From assembly GCF_019207025.1 (NCBI RefSeq), contig NZ_JAEEGC010000032.1, positions 1-54,986 on the forward strand: a stretch of DNA of 54,986 nt, given 5' to 3'. Shown here piece by piece: positions 18,428 through 26,517 of this stretch (positions are counted from its first letter, which is position 1; the number at the start of each line of letters is the position of its first letter). The position numbers and the translations under genes were made by a program. Source of the stretch: Clostridium thailandense (GTDB lineage: Bacteria > Bacillota > Clostridia > Clostridiales > Clostridiaceae). Under the pieces are notes generated by a model, which worked only from the letters and a program-made list of their open reading frames with translations, had not been told where the DNA came from and did not search any database.

Positions 18428-18478
18428 TTACACAATATGGTGTAACTTGTTGACAGTGCCAATTTTTAGTGATAAACT
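18428..18478 (+). promoter_or_regulatory. Palindrome and promoter of the nitrogenase-like/hyp operon
   Basis: Perfect palindrome TTACAC-N6-GTGTAA (18428-18445) lies immediately upstream of TTGACA (18450-18455), a 17-base spacer and TAAACT (18473-18478). The palindrome's position suggests an activator or repressor site touching the -35. The regulator is not known. Confidence 0.55.
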
Positions 18479-18539
18479 GAATATATAAAAATTTCAGAAA
18501 ACGGTTTAACGGTTATTTGATATTTTAACTAAAAATTTA

Positions 18540-18674
18540 ATATTTTTGTCACTCTGAAGCGAAGGTGTCCTGAGATAAAGAGCGGGCAGTAAAAAGTAAT
18601 ATTCTGCAGTTTTTGCATTATTTAAATATTATGACCGCATTTAAGCTCCTCCCAAACTTGGGAGGAGCTTTTTT
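18540..18674 (+). ncRNA. Leader RNA with intrinsic terminator before the nitrogenase-like operon
   Basis: Between the promoter and the GTG at 18778 there are about 300 untranslated bases. The 3' part ends in a strong terminator: AAGCTCCTCCC (18643-18653), loop, GGGAGGAGCTT (18660-18670), T run. Upstream, 18553-18640 contains nested complementary pieces (GCGG with CCGC, GCAG with CTGC) and purine-rich joining segments (GAAGCGAAGG, GAGATAAAGAG). This looks like a regulatory leader, possibly a riboswitch. I could not match it to a class I know; TPP, cobalamin, Moco and ZTP consensus pieces are not convincingly present. Confidence 0.5.
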
Positions 18675-18777
18675 ACATAGGGAAAAAGTACCAGATGTAT
18701 AGTCGAACACGACAGCTATTTAACTTATCTATTAATATGGGACTATTACAAATGAAATTTTATGGGGGGTTTTAAAA

Positions 18778-19539
18778 GTGCTAAAGATAGCCATATACGG
18801 CAAAGGTGGAATTGGGAAGTCTACAATTACTAGTAATTTGTCGGCAGCCTTTGCTACACTTGGGAAAAAAGTTATTCAGATAGGATGTGATCCTAAAGCA
18901 GACTCAAGCATAAATTTGCTAGGAGGGCAATCATTAATGCCTGTAATGAATTATATGAGGGAATTTGATGCGGATCCAGAAAAAATTGAGGATATTTCAA
19001 AAGTAGGCTTTGGGGGAGTTCTTTGCATAGAGGCAGGTGGTCCTACACCTGGTCTTGGGTGTGCGGGAAGAGGTATTATTACTACTTTTAATCTATTAGA
19101 AGATTTAAATCTTTTTGAAATCTATAAACCTGATATTGTGCTTTATGATGTATTAGGAGATGTGGTTTGTGGTGGATTTGCAGCACCTATCCGTGAAGGA
19201 TATGCTGAAAAAGTACTAATTGTCACTTCAGGCGAAAAAATGGCTCTTTACGCAGCCAATAATATAAATAGCGCGGTTAAGAATTTTGAAGATAGAAGTT
19301 ATGCAAAGGTGTTTGGCATAGTATTCAATCATAGAAACATTGAAAATGAAGAAGAAAAAGTAAAAGAATTTGCAGATAAGGTTGGTCTTCCGATTGTAGG
19401 TGATATTCCAAGAAATCAAGACATTAATCATTTTGAAGAAATGGGGAAAACAGTTATCGAAGGAGATCCAGACCTTCCTATAAGCCAGAGTTTTTTAAAT
19501 TTAGCTAAATTATTGATTAAAGATGGGGGAATGAAATGA
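18778..19539 (+). CDS. NifH-like reductase (Fe protein homologue), set 1
   Basis: 253-residue homodimeric ATPase carrying a [4Fe-4S] cluster that should deliver electrons to the D/K proteins encoded next. Seen: P-loop GKGGIGKST (8-16), GCDPKADSS, the cluster ligand region GGPTPGLGCAGRGI (Cys95) and DVLGDVVCGGF (Cys131), with the Arg of GCAGRG that is ADP-ribosylated in true NifH. It is shorter than nitrogenase NifH (275-296) and lacks the longer C-terminal tail, as in group IV/VI nitrogenase-like reductases. Start GTG after GGGGGG. Its stop overlaps the D gene by four bases. Probably not a dinitrogen-fixing nitrogenase: nifB, nifE and nifN are not present here. Confidence 0.93.
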   Translation: MLKIAIYGKGGIGKSTITSNLSAAFATLGKKVIQIGCDPKADSSINLLGGQSLMPVMNYMREFDADPEKIEDISKVGFGGVLCIEAGGPTPGLGCAGRGIITTFNLLEDLNLFEIYKPDIVLYDVLGDVVCGGFAAPIREGYAEKVLIVTSGEKMALYAANNINSAVKNFEDRSYAKVFGIVFNHRNIENEEEKVKEFADKVGLPIVGDIPRNQDINHFEEMGKTVIEGDPDLPISQSFLNLAKLLIKDGGMK

Positions 19540-24253: not shown

Positions 24254-24255
24254 AT

Positions 24256-24462
24256 ATGTGTGTAGGTTTGCCAGCAAAAGTTGTAAAGGTTAGAGAAGGT
24301 ATGGCAATTATTGATGCTTCAGGAGCGAGAAGAGAGGTATCTGCAGAATTAATAGATGAATTGGAACCAGGAGATTATGTTATGGTTCATGCAGGAATTG
24401 CCATTGCTAAAATTACAAAAGATGATCAGAGTGAAACAGATGAAATCATGGAGGCATTGTAA
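24256..24462 (+). CDS. hypC: Hydrogenase maturation chaperone HypC/HybG
   Basis: 68-residue chaperone that with HypD holds the Fe(CN)2CO unit and passes it to the target apoenzyme. It begins MCVGLPAKV with the essential Cys2, followed by the small OB-like beta barrel (VSAELIDELEPGDYVMVHAG). HypC normally gives target specificity by contacting the large subunit; here no hydrogenase large subunit is nearby, so its target is open. It starts two bases after the hypF stop, and its TAA overlaps the hypD ATG (TAATG). Confidence 0.95.
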   Translation: MCVGLPAKVVKVREGMAIIDASGARREVSAELIDELEPGDYVMVHAGIAIAKITKDDQSETDEIMEAL

Positions 24463-25520
24463 TGGTTGAGAACAAAAGAAAAACTGCAAAGGAGATTATT
24501 GAAGCTTACAACGGACCTAAGCTTCGTATTATGGAAGTTTGCGGAACTCATACTCATGAAATATTTAAACTTGGAATTAGGAATATAATACCAGAGGATA
24601 TTGAACTGATATCAGGTCCGGGATGTCCGGTCTGCGTTACTCCTGTTGGTTTTATTGACGAAGCTACTATGCTTGCTCTTGACCATAATGTAACAATATG
24701 TACCTTTGGAGATTTAGTAAGAGTGCCTGGTTCAGAAATGAGCCTTGCGGGAGCCAGGTCAAAAGGAGCCAAGGTTCAAATTGTATATTCACCTATCGAT
24801 GCCTATGAGTATGCGAGTGAACATCTTGATGAGCAGGTAGTATTCTTATCAGTAGGCTTTGAGACAACCACACCTGCCAGCTGCTTGTCAGTAAAAAAGG
24901 CTAAAGCTGTAGGACTTAAAAATTTTTCATTGCTTACGGCAAATAAAACTATGCCAAGTGCATACAAAGCTTTGAAAGGAAGTGCAGATGCCTTTTTATA
25001 TCCAGGTCATGTATATGCCATTGTAGGAACTAAGCTTTGTGAAAGTTTAGCTTGCGAAGGAGTTAGTGGAGTAATAACAGGTTTTACTGCAAAGGAAATC
25101 ATGACAGCACTTGCGGTAGTAATCACAAAATTACAGGAGGGTGGCAGCTTCTTTAAAAACTGTTATCCTAGAGTCGTAACTCCTGAAGGCAGTAAAGTAG
25201 CCAAGGCTATTGTTGCTGAAATTATGGAAGACTGTGATTCTGAATGGAGAGGTCTTGGAGTTATCGAAAATTCAGGTCTTAAATTAAAAGAAGAATATAA
25301 AGAGTTTGATGCAAGGATCAAATTTCATTTACCAGAAGTAAAGGGAAAAAGTAATCCTGCATGCCGCTGCGGTGATGTTTTGCAGGGAAAATGTAAACCA
25401 TCAGATTGTAAAGTGTTTGGCAAAGGATGTACACCACTGCACCCCGTTGGAGCCTGTATGGTATCTAATGAAGGGGCATGTTCAGCATATTATCAGTATG
25501 GAGGAAATATAAATGGATAA
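24462..25520 (+). CDS. hypD: Hydrogenase maturation protein HypD
   Basis: 352-residue [4Fe-4S] protein, scaffold for Fe(CN)2CO assembly with HypC and HypE. Seen: VCGTHTHEIFKLGIR (near 27-40), SGPGCPVCVTP (the redox Cys pair, near 50), SVGFETTTPA (near 130), and the C-terminal cluster-binding region CRCGDVLQGKCKPSDC then KGCTPLHPVGACMVSNEGA. All landmark cysteines are retained, so the protein should be functional. Coupled to hypC by a one-base TAATG overlap and to hypE by an eight-base overlap. Confidence 0.96.
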   Translation: MVENKRKTAKEIIEAYNGPKLRIMEVCGTHTHEIFKLGIRNIIPEDIELISGPGCPVCVTPVGFIDEATMLALDHNVTICTFGDLVRVPGSEMSLAGARSKGAKVQIVYSPIDAYEYASEHLDEQVVFLSVGFETTTPASCLSVKKAKAVGLKNFSLLTANKTMPSAYKALKGSADAFLYPGHVYAIVGTKLCESLACEGVSGVITGFTAKEIMTALAVVITKLQEGGSFFKNCYPRVVTPEGSKVAKAIVAEIMEDCDSEWRGLGVIENSGLKLKEEYKEFDARIKFHLPEVKGKSNPACRCGDVLQGKCKPSDCKVFGKGCTPLHPVGACMVSNEGACSAYYQYGGNING

Positions 25521-26517
25521 AATAGTTACACTAGCTCATGGAGCTGGAGGAAAACAAACATCAGAATTAATAGATCAGGTTTTTAAAACTCATTTTTCGA
25601 ATCCTGACCTAACAGCAGATGATGCTGCAGTCTTAAATATAAATGGAAAAAAACTAGCCTTTACAACAGATGGATTTATTGTTTCACCAGCTGAATTCCC
25701 AGGTGGAAACATTGGCAAGCTGAGTATTTGCGGAACAGTAAACGACTTATCCTGTATGGGAGCAAGGCCCTTATATTTATCCTGTGCTTTTGTCATTGAA
25801 GAAGGTTTTCCGATGGATAAGCTAGAGGAAATTGCAGCAGCCATGGAAAAGACTGCAGATGAAGCAGGAGTTAAAATAGTGGCCGGAGATACGAAGGTGG
25901 CCGGAAAAGGACAGGTTGATGGGGTATTTATAACAACAACAGGCATAGGTCAGATTATAGAAGATGTTAATACTTCCGGCTTTAATGCAAAACCTGGTGA
26001 TGCAATTATTGTAACCGGTGATGTAGGGCGACATGGATGCACTGTTTTGCTGGCACGAAATGAGTTTGGAATTGAGGCAGATGTAACCAGTGATTGTGCA
26101 CCATTATGGGGAACAGTAGAGGCTATGCTTAATACCACAAAGGATATTCATGTAATCAGAGATGCTACCCGTGGAGGTGTTGGTACAGTATTATATGAAA
26201 TCGCAGAACAGAGCAAAGTTGGAATTAGATTGGATTCAGAGAGTATACCAGTAGCAGATGGAGTAAAAGGTGTATGCGGTATGCTGGGTCTAGAACCACT
26301 ATATCTTGCATGTGAAGGCAGGCTTGTGATCTTTGCTCCAAAAGAAGCTGCTCTAAAACTTGTTGATACATTACGCATGGGTAAATATTCGAAAGATGCG
26401 GCTATCATTGGTGAGGTAATAGAAGATATGGCAGGACGTGTTATCGTAAAAACAGAAATTGGTGCAGAAACCTTGCTGCCTCCTCCAGGAGGAGAATTGC
26501 TTCCTAGAATATGCTAA
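25513..26517 (+). CDS. hypE: Hydrogenase maturation protein HypE
   Basis: 334-residue PurM-like ATPase that dehydrates the carbamoyl group on its own C-terminal Cys to a thiocyanate, then donates CN to HypCD. Seen: LAHGAGGKQTSELI, DDAAVL, TTDGF, GTVNDLSCMGARP and the conserved C-terminus LLPRIC with the acceptor Cys intact. RBS GGAGG inside the end of hypD. It is the last gene of the coupled block; hypA and hypB (nickel delivery) are absent. A 691-base spacer with two repeat elements separates it from nitrogenase-like set 2. Confidence 0.96.
   Translation: MDKIVTLAHGAGGKQTSELIDQVFKTHFSNPDLTADDAAVLNINGKKLAFTTDGFIVSPAEFPGGNIGKLSICGTVNDLSCMGARPLYLSCAFVIEEGFPMDKLEEIAAAMEKTADEAGVKIVAGDTKVAGKGQVDGVFITTTGIGQIIEDVNTSGFNAKPGDAIIVTGDVGRHGCTVLLARNEFGIEADVTSDCAPLWGTVEAMLNTTKDIHVIRDATRGGVGTVLYEIAEQSKVGIRLDSESIPVADGVKGVCGMLGLEPLYLACEGRLVIFAPKEAALKLVDTLRMGKYSKDAAIIGEVIEDMAGRVIVKTEIGAETLLPPPGGELLPRIC

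Follow-up and report, generated by a model that had tools for sequence, protein, structure and literature searches.

In the maturation of [NiFe]-hydrogenases, carbamoyl phosphate is the source from which HypF and HypE form a cyano group, and HypC and HypD carry an Fe(CN)2(CO) unit; in that of [FeFe]-hydrogenases, HydG makes the Fe(CO)2(CN) unit for HydE. Nitrogenase proteins, in turn, are able to reduce CO2 to CO. Here we describe a locus that places Hyp proteins and nitrogenase-like proteins side by side. It lies in a stretch of 54,986 nucleotides from Clostridium thailandense (contig NZ_JAEEGC010000032.1; hereafter the window, meaning the whole stretch analysed). A NifH-like ATPase and two nitrogenase component 1-like subunits are directly followed by hypF-hypC-hypD-hypE and then by a second NifH-like/component 1-like set. 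On the basis of its gene content and distribution, we consider it likely that this locus represents a HydG-independent assembly route for the H-cluster of [FeFe]-hydrogenases.

Organization and conservation of the locus

The array opens with the NifH-like ATPase H1 (253 residues, GTG start; 18778-19539) and the component 1-like subunits D1 (433 residues; 19536-20837) and K1 (350 residues; 20838-21890), all three recognized by Pfam and NCBIfam models. Behind them come the carbamoyltransferase HypF (21887-24253), the chaperone HypC (24256-24462), the Fe-S scaffold HypD (24462-25520) and HypE (25513-26517), which score 776, 68, 389 and 427 bits against curated NCBIfam cut-offs of 466, 48, 193 and 252, respectively. 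Open reading frame (ORF) and family searches confirm the seven genes given in a preliminary description of this DNA, all of them on the plus strand. The genes are tightly packed: the junctions measure -4 (H1/D1), 0 (D1/K1), -4 (K1/HypF), +2 (HypF/HypC), -1 (HypC/HypD) and -8 bases (HypD/HypE), in keeping with the overlaps described earlier for H/D, hypC/hypD and hypD/hypE. The further claim of a four-base overlap between the K1 stop and the hypF GTG holds if translation of HypF starts at that GTG (21887), which has AGGA ahead of it, and fails if the alternative ATG at 21899 is used, which leaves a gap of 8 bases; in L028, for example, the HypF frame begins a few bases past the K1 stop.

The second set (27209-30455), which lay beyond the span of the preliminary description, is part of this locus in related genomes. 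It comprises H2 (27209-27979; 51% identical to H1), D2 (27952-29298; its start is probably the ATG at 27970, preceded by AAAGGAG) and K2 (29295-30455; 33% identical to K1), likewise on the plus strand and placed by Pfam and NCBIfam. In the window HypE and H2 are 691 bases apart; in Clostridium carboxidivorans (L030) the H2 frame starts at 15677 of the retrieved sequence, shortly after the end of HypE at 15660, so that the ten genes there form one array.

A profile built from 19 K1 proteins retrieved 516 relatives in genome contigs, and the best 80 loci were kept and read, with the core genes identified by blastp. HypF is present in 79 of these, D1 in 78, H1 in 75, HypD and HypC in 72 each, HypE in 71 and K2 in 67; K1 forms a separate frame in 74, and most of the missing core genes trace to contig ends or fusions. 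The preliminary description had proposed looking for a conserved linkage of the D/K family with hypCDEF, and this linkage proved to be without exception: in each of the 63 loci where 6.5 kb or more of sequence follows K1, HypF, HypC, HypD and HypE lie on the same strand. K2 accompanies them in 60 of these loci, on the downstream side in 43 and on the upstream side in 17. These best 80 loci come from Clostridia, Negativicutes and Coriobacteriia, among them Clostridium, Lachnospiraceae, Oscillospiraceae, Megasphaera, Megamonas and Coriobacteriaceae, with Spirochaetaceae, Synergistaceae and Victivallales each represented by a single metagenome-assembled genome (MAG). Many anaerobic bacteria, often those of the gut, retain the locus. 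When K2 of Megasphaera paucivorans was used as the query, the best 120 matches included none from M. elsdenii, and we build no argument on that species.

Gene fusions further tie the parts of the locus together: D1 is fused to K1 in five loci (L047, L086, L088, L089 and L107), H2 to D2 in two (L065 and L066) and K1 to HypF in one (L048; a 1153-residue frame at 10001-13462). Since L048 comes from a MAG, its intervening stop codon may have been lost by sequencing error. In addition, K2 of L102 bears a C-terminal ThiF/TcdA-like extension, perhaps because K2 is fused with the gene behind it or is read through into that gene.

Association with [FeFe]-hydrogenase maturation genes

When the other frames in the 80 loci were clustered and one example of each family was scanned, the examples included HydE, HydF and the TM1266 regulator, which exceeded their cut-offs, and a member of an aspartate ammonia-lyase subfamily. 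Within the fetched stretches, TM1266 accompanies 45 loci, HydF 21, HydE 11 and the aspartate ammonia-lyase-like gene 6, such that 55 of the 80 have HydE, HydF or TM1266; HydG occurs in none of these 80 stretches. Hyd operons are known to be marked by an aspartate ammonia-lyase gene close to hydF (PMC11736057).

Whole-genome searches were made in 50 of the genomes bearing these loci, chosen mostly for their long contigs. HydE was found in 49 (35 of 35 by fetching the matching proteins, 14 by reading the loci) and HydF in 48, with G307, G309 and G336 matching only the later two thirds of the HydF profile. In a profile search, HydG exceeded its cut-off in none of the 50; among 51 genomes the sole passer was the window's own, and the Thermotoga maritima control passed. 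We also considered whether a divergent HydG might be concealed among other radical SAM proteins. Matches to the HydG profile below its cut-off, at 167-228 bits, stop short of the C-terminal part of HydG (the frames of nine were examined); all five of those scanned proved to be ThiH, and the weaker ones that were fetched were HydE (35 of 35), and on this basis we rejected the possibility. The same is seen in individual species, where the HydG profile yields only a HydE-like match in C. ljungdahlii (G292) and ThiH plus HydE in C. carboxidivorans; C. luticellarii (G294) shows neither HydG nor a [NiFe]-hydrogenase match. That HydG was not found in genomes retaining HydE and HydF makes it likely that the cluster is a second way to the H-cluster.

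For comparison, a control set of 291 genomes was drawn from the class. HydG is found in 184 of them. The K1 profile matched 29: three with a strict K1 (G000, G121 and G210), 12 with a K-like protein at 173-311 bits and 14 weakly. HydG is absent from G121 and G210. In a rough Fisher comparison, which ignores kinship and pools two samples, one of them picked by the locus, HydG is present in 0 of 51 locus genomes versus 183 of 288 others (G210 and G320, the latter the source of L066, are the same assembly and were counted once). Among the 12 genomes with a K-like protein, eight lack HydG (G058, G135, G158, G200, G141, G142, G069 and G228) and four have it (G072, G148, G179 and G269). Four of the former belong to one genus (g61), for which six genomes among those listed can be compared: G058, G135, G158 and G200 have a single cluster, H1-D1-K1-HypF-HypC-HypD-HypE-TM1266-D2-K2-HydF, and no HydG, with HydE next to the cluster in G158, and their congeners G085 and G241 have HydE, HydF and HydG together and no K. 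Of the 97 other class genomes without HydG, 13 were tested for HydF; 12 are devoid of it and one (G283), a genuine exception, possesses it.

A tree of HydF points the same way. It includes 70 of the 81 HydF frames, leaving out duplicates and loci whose genomes were untested for HydG, and on it the state of having the locus and no HydG needs 10 changes, as against a mean of 23.5 upon shuffling. Well-supported branches give eight independent pairs that contrast in the locus; on average, HydG is lost in the same direction in 5.5 of these and in the opposite direction in 0, and 2.5 show no difference (median p=0.03 by a sign test, range 0.03-0.125), a result that is biased in that the rows of the tree were picked by the locus or by HydG.

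Protein families and conserved residues

Both H1 (308 bits) and H2 (325 bits) fall within the NifH family, below the NifH cut-off of 394. D1, K1, D2 and K2 fall within the component 1 family and are far under the cut-offs for NifD, NifK, NifE and NifN, or are unmatched by them; the cut-offs for BchL, BchB, BchN, BchX, CfbC and CfbD are likewise not reached by the H, D and K proteins. Conservation was computed over 50-74 sequences per family. The [4Fe-4S] cysteines of H1, C95 and C131, are invariant (71 sequences), as are both of H2. Invariant, too, are C70, C71, C127, C130 and C157 of D1 (70 sequences) and C37 and C42 of K1 (74 sequences), and among aligned family members D2 keeps C69, C129, H131 and C444, and K2 keeps H32, C37 and H354. 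The K1 motif DxxGC-N7-DEPRW, picked out in the preliminary description, is present, with its residues kept in at least 97% of the 74 sequences. In the Hyp proteins (67-72 sequences per family), C2 of HypC (71 sequences), ten cysteines of HypD including C27 and the C-terminal ones (72 sequences), the C-terminal C334 of HypE (67 sequences) and the zinc-finger cysteines of HypF are all invariant; taking these to be among the catalytic residues, we agree with the earlier view that the Hyp enzymes are intact.

AlphaFold models of D1 and D2 (predicted local distance difference test scores of 84 and 88) both adopt the component 1 fold; in the PDB they match nitrogenase, NifEN and related reductases best, with identities of 11-20%. 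At the position of the NifE cysteine that we take to be the cluster anchor, profile alignments, uncertain at such low identity, place an Asn in D1 and a Ser in K2. With the anchoring cysteine replaced in these two proteins, a FeMo-type cofactor in the D/K proteins appears unlikely; a metal cluster at the D-K interface is plausible.

Regulatory and intergenic regions

Upstream of H1, the best sigma-70-like promoter of the region (18450-18478, plus strand) reads TTGACA-N17-TAAACT with a TG before the second hexamer, a consensus match at 10 of 12 positions, and its TTGACA is also seen in four of six aligned relatives. The scan as a whole gave 25 such sites against a shuffle mean of 30; as there is no excess of sites, the single promoter proposed earlier for all seven genes is no more than plausible. 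The leader at 18549-18676 (plus strand) holds a 36-base block (TCACTCTGAAGCG...) that is nearly unchanged ahead of H1 in six Clostridium relatives (five aligned; in L031 as a 22-base exact match) and, after it, an intrinsic-terminator-like hairpin (18643-18670). We regard it as a candidate for a new regulatory RNA. No Rfam family reaches its gathering score in the leader and its fold is no better than that of shuffled sequences, on which grounds a known riboswitch is ruled out.

Between hypE and H2, two long inverted repeats occupy 26517-27106, one with 137-base arms that are 82% complementary and the other with 52-base arms that are 75% complementary. As relatives L030 and L032 have only a short gap at this point, the repeats look like an inserted palindromic element. 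Elsewhere in the window, a cyclic di-GMP-II riboswitch (5899-5982; 75.8 bits) precedes two genes named from their reading frames: the one at 6095 codes for a periplasmic sugar-binding-like protein, the one at 7136 for a chemotaxis-receptor-like protein.

Alternative explanations

One alternative is that these are ordinary maturation genes for a [NiFe]-hydrogenase that have come to lie beside nitrogenase-like genes by accident. The window's own genome (6.48 Mb, with the window as contig C188; its K1 is 97% identical to that recorded for Clostridium thailandense) gives this some substance: it has a [NiFe]-hydrogenase on contig C112 accompanied by a protease-like gene, HypC and HypD alone (the small genes being named by reading), this second HypD being 41% identical to that of the window, and the only full HypF and the only full HypE that we found in the genome are the window copies, which probably serve this hydrogenase too. 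The preliminary description had held that the association would be due to chance if the genome contained a [NiFe]-hydrogenase without its own hyp genes elsewhere and if the linkage were not conserved in other species. The former is what this genome displays, and by itself it could not decide the role of the hyp genes. The latter is contradicted by the 63 of 63 loci with conserved linkage, which rules out a chance association. Moreover, no [NiFe]-hydrogenase large subunit was detected in 42 of the 50 surveyed locus genomes (PF00374 matched in eight, which include the Clostridium genomes G291, G292 (C. ljungdahlii) and G293 (C. carboxidivorans), and PF00346 in six, all within those eight), and HypA exceeded its cut-off in only 12 of the 50, leaving 38 in which it did not. 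Together, the linkage and the genomes without such a hydrogenase rule out a plain [NiFe] role, and we regard the accidental-neighbour explanation as extremely improbable. A different possibility is that H2-D2-K2 alone replaces HydG, being fed by HypFCDE-H1-D1-K1 or, in genomes without Hyp proteins, by a metal complex imported through an ABC transporter. It draws on G142, G069 and G228, which have no HydG match and have H2-D2-K2 beside an importer of the Peripla_BP_2, FecCD and ABC type (recognized by Pfam in L166 and L167 and by eye in L165) and beside HydE, HydF or TM1266, with no hyp genes in the stretches read. However, such genomes number only three, and the look for hyp genes was limited to those stretches; further, cassettes of the same look, judged by eye, occur in the HydG-bearing G072 and G179, and hence the cassette may do something else. 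We consider this version unlikely as it stands, and it is compatible with the HydG-independent route as a refinement of it. As observations in their own right, the loci L165, L166 and L167 (7485-13901) perhaps constitute a third variant, one that relies on import of a metal complex; G141 lacks HydF and holds a K-like cassette beside an importer of Peripla_BP_2/FecCD look; and in L164, L168 and L170, two of whose three genomes are the HydG-bearing G072 and G179, a related NifH-like/D/K cassette lies away from hydrogenase genes and is accompanied by an importer that, to the eye, looks the same.

Several observations weigh against a HydG-independent route to the H-cluster, in addition to the bias of the tree test. 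The ligand stoichiometry of the Hyp unit does not directly fit the HydE substrate. The window's genome holds the locus together with a real HydG (683 bits; contig C206), with HydF on contig C84. The genome G283 (L174) has HydE, HydF and TM1266 together with neither HydG nor a K match, possibly reflecting another route or an incomplete genome, and the stretches read of the three importer-bearing genomes, as said, have no hyp genes. Five of the 12 HypA-bearing locus genomes have no [NiFe]-hydrogenase match. Many of the surveyed genomes are MAGs or drafts, and the survey of the 50 covered the maturation genes, with HydA itself outside it. According to PMC9431212, HydG occurs in C. drakei, C. scatologenes and C. 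autoethanogenum, and the others have an atypical HydG-like candidate. Further, 25 of the 80 loci, some on short contigs, have no HydE, HydF or TM1266 nearby; there are no Hyd genes near the locus in L158 or in the five nearest Clostridium relatives (L028-L032), indicating that in the window's group the Hyd genes lie elsewhere. Finally, G324 has the locus with neither a HydE-like match nor HydF, and G340 is devoid of HydF. The isolated loci and G324, along with the component 1-like folds and their invariant cysteines, would also suit a reading in which D1-K1 or D2-K2 carry a new Hyp-derived Fe-CN/CO cofactor and reduce some substrate with it, the tie to HydE and HydF being one of shared regulation. 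That reading, however, leaves unexplained why HydG is found in 0 of 50 genomes as opposed to HydE in 49 and HydF in 48, as well as the single cluster with HydF in genus g61, and we think it improbable. Of the component 1 matches in the window's genome, 14 in all, eight further strong ones on contigs C211 and C212 look like true nitrogenases plus their scaffold proteins.

Proposed mechanism and relationship to known systems

In the HydG-independent route that we favor, HypF and HypE would turn carbamoyl phosphate into a cyano group and HypC and HypD would hold the iron that receives it, both as in [NiFe]-hydrogenase maturation; the two HDK machines, driven by ATP, would then finish an Fe-CN/CO unit for HydE and HydF in place of HydG. 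As the product of HypCD is Fe(CN)2(CO) and the substrate of HydE is Fe(CO)2(CN), the low-potential HDK reductases would most likely adjust the ligands, for example through reduction of CO2 to an iron-bound CO or through exchange of one CN for CO, which is the step we are least sure of. This chemistry is tentative in its details and could well turn out differently. Stated more broadly, the proposal is of a second complete biosynthesis of the H-cluster, with cyanide derived from carbamoyl phosphate via HypF/HypE rather than from tyrosine via HydG, iron held on HypC/HypD and two reductases, one of them likely making CO from CO2, that convert the unit into the HydE substrate, and it would underlie much of the hydrogen of gut Lachnospiraceae and acetogenic clostridia; in this broader form we lean, if only somewhat, towards its being correct. 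The preliminary description had offered that the nitrogenase-like enzyme carries a cyanide/CO-ligated iron, helps to build or modify such a group, or acts as a chaperone-like maturase for it. The second of these comes nearest, and the [FeFe]-hydrogenase as destination was unforeseen.

Published observations on acetogens are consistent with such a route. PMC9431212, which deals with [FeFe]-hydrogenases in C. ljungdahlii and its relatives, lists C. carboxidivorans, C. ljungdahlii, C. sp. AWRP, C. coskatii and C. ragsdalei as having HydE and HydF and no HydG by the usual motifs, and the C. ljungdahlii group as having HypCDEF without HypA and HypB, for which its authors suggest an unknown way of handling nickel. 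For the missing HydG, the options they tentatively raise are the atypical HydG-like candidate, free CO and CN, or unknown mechanisms. The locus is present in C. ljungdahlii (L029) and C. carboxidivorans (L030). Also, PMC13339137 states that HydG and HydE can be substituted by a synthetic diiron complex, which fits a supply upstream of HydF. Searches of the open-licence literature, with subscription journals and bioRxiv preprints outside PMC mostly beyond its scope, listed no paper describing the locus as a hydrogenase maturation system or its association of the two machineries, in agreement with the earlier statement to that effect. The system is real, widely conserved and undescribed within the literature searched.

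If the proposal holds, three very well-known metal-cluster systems, nitrogenase, [NiFe]- and [FeFe]-hydrogenase maturation, would be joined in one pathway. It would account for the occurrence of HydE and HydF without HydG in acetogens and many gut bacteria, as well as for HypCDEF in genomes devoid of HypA or of a [NiFe]-hydrogenase, and would offer hydrogenase engineering a source of CO and CN ligands that is independent of HydG, a radical SAM enzyme. Part of the large family now labelled 'nitrogenase component 1' would gain a function as well: K1 has 3944 relatives at E-values up to 0.001.

Among known systems, the locus recalls HydE/HydF/HydG maturation in having HydE, HydF and TM1266 and, in six loci, the aspartate ammonia-lyase-like gene nearby, and the product is likely the same H-cluster; it differs in that no HydG was found and that hypFCDE with two nitrogenase-like systems stand in its place. 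With the HypA-F system for [NiFe]-hydrogenases it shares HypC, HypD, HypE and HypF that are true members of their families with intact residues, but here there is mostly no [NiFe]-hydrogenase or HypA, and the hyp genes are fixed behind nitrogenase-like genes. Other nitrogenase-like, ATP-driven reductases outside nitrogen fixation are found in the methylthio-alkane reductase MarHDK, the protochlorophyllide reductase BchLNB and CfbCD, although the context of the present locus is hydrogenase maturation and not sulfur or tetrapyrrole metabolism; for MarHDK, which had no model among the family matches, the comparison is drawn from weak PDB profile matches. Other bacterial nitrogenase-like genes have been linked to methyl-sulfur metabolism (PMC10418091). 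NifEN and nitrogenase component 1 share with the locus a NifH-like ATPase and a two-subunit component 1 fold, with NifE and NifN among the closest solved relatives, whereas the locus proteins fall far under the respective cut-offs and depart from NifE at the anchor position in D1 and K2. As a scaffold on which a metal cluster is finished, NifEN nonetheless offers the best functional parallel to the system described here.

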